Below, in pieces: positions 13,757 through 46,536 of a stretch of 64,000 bases of DNA. Both the position numbers and the translations under genes were made by a program. How positions within the stretch are numbered: the first letter of the stretch is position 1; each line of letters begins with the position of its first letter. Origin of the DNA: Prauserella marina (GTDB taxonomy: Bacteria; Actinomycetota; Actinomycetes; Mycobacteriales; Pseudonocardiaceae); the NCBI RefSeq assembly GCF_002240355.1, contig NZ_CP016353.1, positions 3,088,501-3,152,500 on the forward strand, read 5' to 3'. Below the pieces are notes generated by a model, which worked only from the letters and a program-made list of their open reading frames with translations, was not told the origin of the DNA and made no database searches.

Positions 13757-13851
13757 CCGCGAGTCCCCCGCCCAGCCCGCCGAGATCCGCACTCAGGGCG
13801 GCGAGATCCGCGCCCAGGATGGCGAGATCCGCGTTCGGCCCGCCGCGCTCG
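13757..13851 (-). repeat. 21-bp periodic array, copy A
   Basis: Boxes of the type CGAGATCC or CGAGTCCC begin at 13760, 13781, 13802 and 13823, exactly 21 bases apart, with a degenerate fifth at 13844. The left end, 13757-13796, is nearly identical to the ends of arrays at 35.9 kb and 36.5 kb: two mismatches in 40 against the latter, after reverse complementing. On the minus strand the units can encode a heptapeptide repeat of the NADLAIL / SADLGGL type. No gene uses it convincingly. Confidence 0.8.
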
Positions 13852-14208: not shown

Positions 14209-14290
14209 CGGCGTCGGCAACGCGAACGCGCGACTCGGTGACCTGAGTGCGGAAGTCGTCGGCCTGAGCGCGGAACTCGCCTCCACCCGG
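14209..14290 (+). repeat. 21-bp periodic array, copy A2 (inverted relative to copy A)
   Basis: GCGACTCG (14230), GGAAGTCG (14251) and GGAACTCG (14272) recur at exactly 21 bases, with a weaker box at 14209. The unit is the reverse complement of copy A, so the two arrays bracket the DUF6191 gene as inverted copies. Read on the plus strand it can encode RLGDLSAEVVGLSAELAS, again a heptad pattern. It is more degenerate than the other copies and lacks the conserved 40-bp end. Confidence 0.65.
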
Positions 14291-35631: not shown

Positions 35632-35880
35632 ATGAGCACCGTACGCGCAGGCTGGGGAAGGGCCATCGGGACGAAGCTGCGGGCGGTGCCGGTCACCACG
35701 TGGCTCGCGCTGGCCATCGTCGTGGTGGCGCTGGTCTTCGTTCTGCAGAACCGCAATGAGACCAGCGTTCACCTCTTCGGGGCGGCGCTGACGGCGCCGC
35801 TTTGGTTGACCTTGTTGTTCACCTTCCTCGCCGGTGTGCTCGCGGGCTGGCTCGGCAAGCGAAGGCGGACCCGCCGCTAG
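35632..35880 (+). CDS. LapA-like small membrane protein (DUF1049)
   Basis: The 82-residue protein has two membrane segments separated by VLQNRNETSVHLFG, the DUF1049 hallmark (a QNxxxVxxxFF-type pattern), and a basic C-terminus KRRRTRR. It is a small inner-membrane protein; homologues relate to lipopolysaccharide assembly in proteobacteria but are of unclear role in actinomycetes. GGAGTGAG precedes the ATG. Its stop codon lies 42 bases before a 21-bp repeat array. Confidence 0.8.
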   Translation: MSTVRAGWGRAIGTKLRAVPVTTWLALAIVVVALVFVLQNRNETSVHLFGAALTAPLWLTLLFTFLAGVLAGWLGKRRRTRR

Positions 35881-35922
35881 CGGCCCAGGAGCCCGCCTCC
35901 CCCGTGCCCTTGCCCGCGGAAC

Positions 35923-36059
35923 CCGCGAGTCCCCCGTCCAGGCCGTCGAGATCCGCACTCAGGCGGCCGAGATCCGCATTCGGGACGGCGAGATCCGCAT
36001 TCGGGGCCGTGACATGCGCGATCAGGTCGCCGAGATCTGCGTTCGTGCGGGCGAGATCC
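35923..36059 (-). repeat. 21-bp periodic array, copy B
   Basis: Boxes related to CGAGATCC begin at 35926, 35947, 35968, 35989, 36010, 36031 and 36052, exactly 21 bases apart. The left end (35923-35962) is the same 40-bp end seen in copies A and C, with three mismatches against C. On the minus strand it can encode NADLAVPNADLGRLSADL. It lies outside genes, after the LapA-like gene, and points away from copy C. Confidence 0.85.
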
Positions 36060-36303
36060 GCCGGGGAGACCGTGTCGTGACGCCGGACGCGCGAGTGGAA
36101 GGACAGGCGAGTCGAAGACGGTGAGAGCAACCGGCACCGAGTCCATCCCCGTTCATCCACGTCATCACGCACTGGATCCAGGAAGTGACTGTTCGCGACA
36201 TTCGCGACCACCGCGATGGTGGCGGCACCGGATCTCGTCGTCGCCGGGCGTGTACCTCGTCGCATGTGGGCGTCGTCGGATGTGGTCAGCATCGGGGTGT
36301 GGG

Positions 36304-36511
36304 TCTCGCCGATTGTGGATCTCGGTCGCGTGGGTGTGCATCTCGCATACCCCACCGCGGATCTCGGTGGCCAGGATTCGGATCTCAGGGTCCTGCACGC
36401 GGATCTCGCGGTCCCGGATGCGGATCTCGCGGTCCTGAACGCAGAACTCGGGCATCTGAGTGCGGATCTCGGCGTCCTGGGCGGGGGACTCGCGGACGTA
36501 CGGGGGACTCG
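36304..36511 (+). repeat. 21-bp periodic array, copy C (inverted relative to copy B)
   Basis: GGATCTCG-like boxes begin at 36317 and recur at 36338, 36359, 36380, 36401, 36422, 36443, 36464 and 36485: nine steps of exactly 21 bases. It ends in the 40-bp block 36456-36495 shared with copies A and B, and a partial extra end copy follows at 36504. Looser copies may extend left to about 36230. On the plus strand it encodes ADLAVPDADLAVLNAEL within an open frame from 36216 to 36587. That frame has no ribosome binding site and is not called as a gene. Confidence 0.88.
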
Positions 36512-36561
36512 CGGGGCTCGGCGGACGGGCGGGGGCTGGTTCGGGCACGCCCCGGTATGTT

Positions 36562-36588
36562 CTTATACGTACAACATGTACGTATAAG
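36562..36588. promoter_or_regulatory. Operator of the acid-sugar operon
   Basis: CTTATACGTAC (36562-36572) and GTACGTATAAG (36578-36588) are perfect 11-bp inverted copies around five bases. The right arm ends in TATAAG, a possible -10 element, about 35 bases before the permease start. GntR/HutC-type regulators bind this kind of site, and such a gene closes the operon. Confidence 0.7.
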
Positions 36589-36623: not shown

Positions 36624-37622
36624 GTGAGTGGTTCGGAAACGTCGCGAGTTCCCCTGTTCGCCACGATGCAACGCATCCCAGGCGGACTGATGCTGATTCC
36701 GCTGGTTCTCGGCACCCTTTTCGGCACCTTCGCCCCCGGTGCGCTGGAGATCGGCAGCTTCACGACCGCGTTGTTCCAGGACAGCGCACTACCGCTCATC
36801 GCGCTGCTGATCTTCGCGACGGGCACGCAGGTCTCGATGCGCACCGGCGGCCCGATCCTCGCCACCGCGGGCACGATGCTGCTGATGAAGAGCCTGATCC
36901 CGGCGGGCCTCGTCGTGCTGCTCGGGGTCTTCGTCGGCATCGACGGCCTGCTCGGCGTCTCACTGCTGGGCCTGCTCGCCGCGATCGACAACAGCAATGG
37001 CGGGCTCTGGCTCGCGTTCGCCGGTCAGTACGGCGACGAGCGCGACCGCGGCGCCTACATCGCGAGCGCCATCAACGACGGGCCGTTCCTGAGCCTGCTG
37101 TTCCTCGGCGCGTCCGGATTCGGCGACATCCCGGTGCTCGCGCTGGTCGCGGCCATCGTCCCGTTCCTGCTCGGCGTGCTCGTCGGCAACCTGGACCGGC
37201 AGTGGAGCAAGGTCGTCGAGCCGGTGCCCAACATCGTCATCCCGTTCTTCGCCTTCGCGCTCGGTACCGGCATCGACCTCGGCGACGTGGTCACCGGCGG
37301 GCTCACCGGTGTGGTCGTCGGCCTGATCGTGGCACCGTTCACCGGTTTCCTCTGCTACCTCGGATACCGGTTCATCCTTCGCCGTGGCGCGATGTCCGGC
37401 ATCGGCTTCGCGCAGGGCACCACCGCGGGCAACGCCATTGCTACACCCGCTGTCGTCGCGGCGGCCGATCCCCGGTTCCAGGAGTTCGTCGGCACCGCGA
37501 CAGCGCAAGTGGCGGCATCGGTGCTGGTGACGGCCATCGTCGCGCCCCTGCTGGCGACGTGGGCACTCAACCGTGCCGGTGCGCTGCGTCCGGCCGGGGT
37601 CGTGGAGACGCAACCGTCATGA
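36624..37622 (+). CDS. KdgT-family sugar-acid permease
   Basis: The 332-residue protein has about ten membrane segments and is similar in layout to 2-keto-3-deoxygluconate permeases: RIPGGLMLIPLVLGTLFGTF at the start, AAIDNSNGGLWLAF in the middle and GFAQGTTAGNAIATPAVVAA near the end. It should import a sugar acid by proton symport. AAGGAGG lies just before the GTG at 36624. The next two genes metabolise four-carbon acid sugars, so the cargo here is more likely threonate or erythronate than ketodeoxygluconate. Confidence 0.85.
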   Translation: MSGSETSRVPLFATMQRIPGGLMLIPLVLGTLFGTFAPGALEIGSFTTALFQDSALPLIALLIFATGTQVSMRTGGPILATAGTMLLMKSLIPAGLVVLLGVFVGIDGLLGVSLLGLLAAIDNSNGGLWLAFAGQYGDERDRGAYIASAINDGPFLSLLFLGASGFGDIPVLALVAAIVPFLLGVLVGNLDRQWSKVVEPVPNIVIPFFAFALGTGIDLGDVVTGGLTGVVVGLIVAPFTGFLCYLGYRFILRRGAMSGIGFAQGTTAGNAIATPAVVAAADPRFQEFVGTATAQVAASVLVTAIVAPLLATWALNRAGALRPAGVVETQPS

Positions 37623-46440: not shown

Positions 46441-46500
46441 TGATCGATTCCCTGAGCCGAGCGGGACGGGAGTCGCCGCGGGGGAGGGTTAGTCTGCTCT

Positions 46501-46536
46501 GTTGTGCGAGATGTTGTGCGAGATGTTGTGCGAGAC
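46501..46536 (+). repeat. 12-bp triplicate at the start of the PucR gene
   Basis: GTTGTGCGAGAT occurs three times in tandem, the last copy with one change. It places in-frame GTG codons at 46504, 46516 and 46528, each a possible start, and encodes repeated VRDV. Slippage here would alter the protein by four residues without breaking the frame, and would change the distance from GGGGAGGG (46481-46488). Confidence 0.75.

Follow-up and report, generated by a model that had tools for sequence, protein, structure and literature searches.

Several described families of short repeated DNA invite comparison with the locus reported here. The DNA uptake sequences (DUS) of the Neisseriaceae are high-copy motifs with an invariant trinucleotide (CTG) that fall into dialects, form inverted pairs at gene ends and are often intragenic (PMC3630211). 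REP/BIME elements are intergenic, lie between convergent or unidirectional genes in opposite orientations, and have been reported to co-evolve with a recognizing protein (PMC3733652 and PMC8266576). CRISPR arrays consist of 24- to 48-bp repeats with unique spacers (PMC3733652).

The locus compared with them here is a pair of 21-bp tandem arrays in a 64,000-nucleotide stretch of Prauserella marina DNA, the whole of which was analyzed and is referred to as the window. We regard the DUS dialect as the closest functional analogy: the arrays share with it a high-copy short motif with an invariant trinucleotide (GAG in this case), species-specific dialects around that core and inverted pairs at gene ends. 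They differ in being tandem, nearly absent from genes and polar, with separate unit classes at head and tail; at profile scores of at least 14, solitary copies, those inside genes included, stay at or near the control level. Membership in the DUS fails because the array units are not solitary or genic. With REP/BIME elements and their RAYT, the arrays have in common intergenic, convergent or unidirectional contexts and units in opposite orientation. Their units, however, are not palindromic, fold into no stem-loops, bear no GTAG/CGTC end tag and come from carriers without a Y1 transposase where this was tested (PF01797 in 0 of 10 array-rich genomes). Since palindrome, tag and transposase are all wanting, the arrays do not belong to the REP elements. 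A CRISPR array was likewise rejected: the 21-bp units are in contact, most of their columns are conserved, and there are no unique spacers.

Two facing arrays in the window

An earlier note, made from the letters of the window, had described a pair of opposed arrays with a 21-bp period in DNA devoid of genes. These are real: the pattern GAGWYCCSC-N12-GAGWYCCSC, with at most one mismatch, matches 14 times in the window against 0.07 expected, a count reached by 0 of 100 shuffles. The seven boxes given for array B were recovered as seven units starting at 35923+21k (k = 0 to 6; box start 35926/35927), units 5 and 7 being degenerate. For array C, the nine boxes and their uniform 21-bp steps stand, but the count must be extended by a tenth, outermost box at a different offset (Table 1). 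What had to be reversed is the orientation, which was given as pointing away: read from GAG to CCGC, the arrays face each other, with the head units outermost and inner units that are mostly GAGATCCGC. The surmise that no named element fits has held up, as the window has 0 Rfam matches at the gathering score, and the open-access literature, to which the search was confined (subscription papers and preprints fall outside it), yielded no description of such arrays.

Just upstream of the kdgT, sugar kinase-like and pdxA genes, which are followed by a gene for a GntR-UTRA regulator, the window also carries a perfect palindrome that is likely an operator.

Table 1. Positions of arrays and neighboring features in the window
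Feature	Position	Strand	Description
Array A	13758-13841	+	4 units; starts 5 bp past the stop codon of an IclR-type regulator gene
Weak array	14219-14281	-	3 units; inward-facing with array A across a small DUF6191 gene
LapA-domain gene	35632-35880		Flanks arrays B and C
Array B	35923-36069	+	Seven 21-bp units, headed by GAGTCCCCC at 35927; reads rightwards into the intergenic region
Interior between B and C	36070-36305		Unmatched to the interiors of 11 other pairs (800-kb sample)
Array C	about 36306-36494	-	9 units of 21 bp; head GAGTCCCCC near 36491; reads leftwards to B
Extra outermost head box of array C	36501-36514	-	Tenth box; set off by 19 bp, not 21
16-bp perfect inverted repeat	35922-35937 and a partner including 36501-36514		Comprises the extra head box of array C
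Palindrome	36562-36588		Perfect; 12-bp arms, CTTATACGTACA-ACA-TGTACGTATAAG
kdgT gene	start at 36624 or 36666		Flanks arrays B and C
12-bp repeat	46500-46535		Unit TGTTGTGCGAGA, three perfect copies

A dispersed family of polar arrays

Arrays B and C are members of a dispersed Pseudonocardiaceae family of polar tandem arrays. In the window's genome (6.99 Mb; G000 below), the two-unit pattern matches 452 times (225 forward, 227 reverse), compared with 0 for the reversed control. A contiguous 800-kb sample holds 47 arrays with 251 units, from which the genome total extrapolates to about 410 when scaled by length and about 220 when scaled by the share of forward matches (200 to 400 overall); the sample was chosen after the genome-wide matches had been seen and is richer than average, as 11.5% of the genome contributes 48 of the 225 forward matches. 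Unit counts carry the caveat that arrays may be collapsed in short-read assemblies. Arrays were excluded before counting if their best unit scored below 20 (5 of 50), or below 14 in later analyses, and called genes were excluded if arrays overlapped more than 25% of them and their coding score was weak (1 of 734).

The unit has the structure GAGT-key(4)-C followed by a body of 12, or 21 bp and two helical turns in all; unit profiles begin GAG(T/A), with conserved columns along most of the unit, and 219 of 228 close steps between successive units in the sample equal 21. Arrays have distinct head and tail unit classes, and the head unit sits at the gene border, where the outer array end is sharp, falling between CGC and GAG. 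At scores of at least 14, nearly all units lie within arrays: 232 of 243 in G000 and, over five other genomes combined, 271 of 275 (G003 47/48, G002 45/45, G001 87/88, G046 47/49, G078 45/45). Solitary hits at that score are at control level in the five genomes, and G000 has 11 against 3 to 10 in controls. At the looser score of at least 10, G000 shows a weak excess, with 66 solitary units, 62 of them in genes (controls: 11 to 51 permuted, 19 reversed). The proposal stood to fall if a profile of the unit scored no better in intergenic DNA than in shuffled sequence; the profile is intergenic and far above controls.

The alternative that 21 bp stands for seven codons is not supported. A protein-coding repeat was rejected, as in each of five genomes all three frames occur after the preceding stop (first GAG in 9, 7 and 5 cases in G000) and the arrays are intergenic (45 of the 47 in the sample); unit variation has no consistent 3-base pattern by eye. 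In A+T content, a 3-base component ranks first in G000, with a share of 0.21, but is small elsewhere (0.01 to 0.08 in four other genomes). Nor did the stretch turn out to be part of a conserved coding gene in relatives.

The sharp outer end and the inverted ends would suit a REP-like or MITE-like nonautonomous mobile element that a transposase mobilizes by binding its 21-bp repeats, as would apparent gains against short gaps in relatives (for example, 627 bp against 81, 81 and 76 bp). Against this, the Y1 family, the one transposase family covered, occurs in 3 of 8 array-poor genomes and in none of the array-rich ones; the arrays do not fold on themselves, and no target duplication was seen by eye. 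Comparison of 12 interiors, that of the window included, gave no common core; the exceptions are a weak match of 24 bases (E 0.003) and a duplicate 2 kb away. A MITE or TIR transposon was rejected on the lack of common internal sequence, and we hold a mobile element of any such kind to be the least probable of the readings considered. The duplicate concerns two array pairs about 2 kb apart (G000:C1 2064534-2064745 and 2066555-2066891) with identical 58-bp interiors and tail units; this likeness is a copy or conversion event between neighboring gaps. Elsewhere, an 8-bp tandem repeat (unit GCCGCCTC, more than 10 copies by eye; G000:C1, about 1583580-1583740) adjoins an array between convergent genes.

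Distribution and dialects

The arrays are confined to the Pseudonocardiaceae. A dialect-tolerant (generic) pattern matches 51 of 297 genomes there, spread over 13 of 46 genera, some of which have just one match, and control columns are 0. Outside the family, it gave one match in one genome among 294 genomes of the class; its reversed control hits three times in another genome, G425. The strict pattern also matches P. shujinwangii and Qaidamihabitans albus; its reversed control gives one hit in each of several genomes. Dialects matter for such counts: strict GAGWYCCSC pairs number 4 in G003 and 212 in G002, against 412 and 401 generic matches, so that G003 looked array-poor under the strict pattern because its dialect was missed. 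Conversely, the generic pattern misses most of G021, which has 424 strict matches (other g19 genomes, 0 to 2) and 9 generic ones.

Genome-wide dialects with an invariant trinucleotide, together with inverted pairs at gene ends, would be expected of a self-DNA label for uptake or transfer, comparable to the DUS dialects (PMC3630211) or to TraB recognition sites. One exact-pattern scan of viral contigs and one search of plasmid records with array B gave no match, a result that fits such a label and on which we rejected a viral or plasmid origin. The array units are nearly always tandem and outside genes, however, whereas intragenic DUS are common (PMC3630211), and loci are not significantly more even than random gaps; an even spacing was rejected, as 382 of 5,000 random draws were equally even. 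TraB recognition sites are part of actinomycete conjugation, and the carriers of the arrays are soil bacteria; we know of no competence in these bacteria, which also counts against a label. All told, we consider this reading very improbable.

Gene context and orientation

The earlier note had suggested mapping copies relative to gene ends, which places the arrays between genes with a preference for convergent gaps. Among gaps no shorter than 60 bp in five blocks of 0.38 to 0.8 Mb, arrays are present in 32 of the 146 convergent ones and 31 of the 887 others; in G000 alone, the figures are 18 of 42 and 16 of 300 (p 6e-10), the gap classes being approximate because the gene caller was homemade. 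All 22 two-array gaps in these blocks are inward-facing (plus, then minus), and one three-array gap reads plus, minus, minus. The inward order is not universal, since among the matches listed outside the blocks those in G123 (C23:51042-51153) and G286 (C1:641666-641785) stand minus, then plus. Heads toward the 3' end of a gene begin within 50 bp of that end in 47 of 60 cases, and heads toward a start codon leave at least 60 bp in 21 of 27. Single arrays in codirectional gaps turn their head to a 3' end in 7 cases and to a 5' end in 9, showing no transcription polarity. This counts against the reading we prefer, as a plain terminator would show polarity.

If the arrays were an RNA element, the transcript of an inward pair would fold as one long hairpin and end or stabilize transcripts from both sides, which would agree with the convergent bias and with the folding of the window pair (-403 against a shuffle mean of -310 kcal/mol, z -12.8, and -349 against -279 kcal/mol, z -9.7; 20 shuffles, both strands). 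The pair folds strongly, however, because two arms made of the same unit must. Among 64 inward pairs, the configuration to which collection was confined, pairing between partners is no better than pairing with arrays of other loci (p 0.45 on both strands), and a hairpin with locus-specific compensation was rejected on the lack of any excess. Moreover, 23 of 34 array-bearing G000 gaps hold a single array, and some arrays, as at a tRNA locus, lie beyond an apparent intrinsic terminator. Self-structure of the arrays was rejected as well: mean z values against dinucleotide shuffles (sense/antisense) are +0.33/+0.13 in G000 (20 arrays), with mild effects on one strand in G003 (-1.65/-0.58; 10 arrays) and G078 (+0.17/-1.57; 8 arrays). 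We therefore think an RNA element improbable. Rho utilization, which calls for C over G, is not general because units in G003 have C 6.9/G 7.6, compared with C 10.1/G 5.5 per unit in G078.

Constraint on the 21-bp step

Neighboring units differ by 2,103 substitutions, and 24 of 460 steps are out of the 21-bp register, that is, 0.011 indels per substitution (24/2103). Array-free gaps of two close pairs of genomes give 0.178 (149/838) and 0.137 (197/1433). Compared with array-free intergenic DNA, the 21-bp step is 12 to 16 times better protected against indels, a ratio to be read with the caveat that badly broken units may escape detection. Spacing is held to whole helical turns, as in a phased protein-binding array, and the idea in the earlier note of a protein on one face of the helix fits this protection better than seven codons do. 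A 10.5-bp A+T periodicity falls short of significance in all five genomes examined (permuted columns match it in 898 to 2,984 of 5,000 draws); DNA bending or gyrase-like wrapping, which would call for that period, was rejected, and the lack of it also counts against the reading we prefer.

Conserved positions and a switch of keys

Close relatives keep their arrays in place. G002 and G003 are 93.3% identical over 299 kb; where their blocks overlap, 5 of 5 loci and 8 of 8 arrays are common, two of the five loci being matched by position, and of 150 comparable gaps 147 are array-free in both and 3 have arrays in both. The two further G002 loci that could be compared, L042 and L075, have arrays at the matching G003 places, L263 and L266, which makes 7 of 7 examined loci common. 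G046 and G078 (92.2% identical) have 12 of 13 arrays in common. Arrays stand in the gap 3' of smc (genes identified by Pfam SMC domains) in 7 of 10 genomes from three genera (G000 to G003, G021, G046 and G078); G059 has a lone head unit there, and none was seen in G204 and G058. At greater distance, positions are less stable. Relative to G000, at about 80% protein identity, loci mostly do not coincide, and in some relatives the gaps are short and array-free; orthologous gaps of G000 and G003 comprise 4 with arrays in G000 only, 1 in G003 only, 2 in both and 127 in neither. Because many orthologous gaps lack them, arrays are dispensable.

The SMC protein of G000 (L115:15935-19795) has 1,286 residues, against 1,199 to 1,212 in seven relatives and 1,260 in G021, with an extended C-terminal tail; the array begins 3 bp past the stop codon. 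In G058 (L160), SMC shows up as a pair of matches in neighboring frames (residues 323-1276 and 1-327), perhaps a frameshift or a sequencing error.

Within this shared layout, sequences have diverged unevenly. In the block overlap, orthologous G003 and G002 arrays are 66% identical and nonorthologous ones 65%, against 72% and 68% within genomes. Across 38 head-anchored unit pairs, the key (unit positions 4-7) differs at rates of 0.34, 0.58, 0.76 and 0.63, while positions 0-3, 8, 12 and 20 are nearly fixed between orthologues; the body changes too at positions 10, 13 and 16, with rates of 0.47 to 0.58. Keys and bodies were then compared in all 11 orthologous arrays, the two of L075/L266 included. 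Head-anchored key distance is 0.58 between orthologues against 0.28 and 0.31 within genomes; in 10 of 11 arrays the keys of paralogues are nearer than that of the orthologue (p 0.003 and 0.002), and with tail anchoring this holds for 10 and 9 of 11 (p 0.002 and 0.019). Even so, orthologous keys are slightly closer than shuffled pairings (14/5000). Body distance is 0.27 between orthologues against 0.32 and 0.35 within genomes, and orthologous bodies are closer than under shuffled pairing (1/5000). Against G002 paralogues, bodies give p 0.054 and 0.014; against G003 paralogues, neither anchoring reaches significance, the orthologous body being closer in 7 of 11 arrays when aligned from the head (p 0.21) and in 5 of 11 when aligned from the tail (p 0.83). 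In the cleanest array, L042/L263, 4 of the 5 G002 units can be paired; among these, 2 of 48 body sites and 8 of 16 key sites have changed, the key changes being CCCC/CGTA twice and TCTG/TGTG twice. The head TCCCCC is the commonest in 5 of 6 genomes (18 of 44 in G000 and 7-12 of 8-13 in the others), G003 having it in 1 of 10. Keys have thus changed in concert genome-wide while bodies were partly inherited; the direction of change is not proven.

A rival reading is a selfish or neutral dispersed minisatellite that would grow and shrink by slippage, be homogenized between loci by recombination and persist between genes only because insertions elsewhere are harmful. Unit counts do vary at one locus (3 against 5, 4 against 6), middle units are often locally uniform, and the plus-strand array of L075/L266, with a body distance of 0.47, seems replaced rather than re-keyed. 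The patchy distribution over genera, the isolated abundance in G021 and the many orthologous gaps without arrays point the same way. Indels, on the other hand, are suppressed in the arrays, units occur in tandem only and in head and tail classes, and pairs in the blocks are inward without exception. Several loci change keys while keeping neighboring bodies in order, which long-tract conversion does not give. On balance, a minisatellite appears possible but rather unlikely.

A proposed role at gene borders

The arrays are tandem, phase-constrained, polar, mostly inward-facing, conserved in position among close relatives and concertedly re-keyed. Our preferred reading, which we put forward tentatively on the basis of sequence comparison, is that they may be polar, helically phased binding arrays for a putative fast-evolving DNA-binding protein and mark gene borders. 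Such a protein would bind each unit sequence-specifically via GAGT-key-C, probably cooperatively along one face of the helix, and as its specificity drifts, selection would rewrite the key at its sites. Bound arrays could then act as direction-dependent boundaries at both borders of an intergenic region, where they would stop or buffer transcription, or the supercoils it makes, entering from either side. We consider the binding step more likely than this particular boundary role. Arrays of sites for a terminator or roadblock protein are exemplified by the TTF-I sites downstream of rDNA, which are also orientation-dependent tandem sites at gene ends; the TTF-I system differs in being eukaryotic and confined to one locus.

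A bolder version, a border code, is doubtful: hundreds of polar, phased arrays would bracket intergenic regions and be read by the putative fast-evolving protein, with the key rewritten at nearly every unit when the specificity of that protein changes, while the arrays stay. If true, it would amount to a chromosome-wide insulator system of a new kind, involving a lock-and-key arms race. Should the binding-array reading be right, close pairs such as G002 and G003 would offer a natural experiment: within about 7% divergence, a code for DNA recognition would have changed throughout a genome, and bacteria would allow a direct test of how a DNA-binding protein and its hundreds of sites evolve together. 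The intergenic regions of Pseudonocardiaceae would also gain a gene-border element, and stretches open to misannotation as hypothetical genes would be explained.
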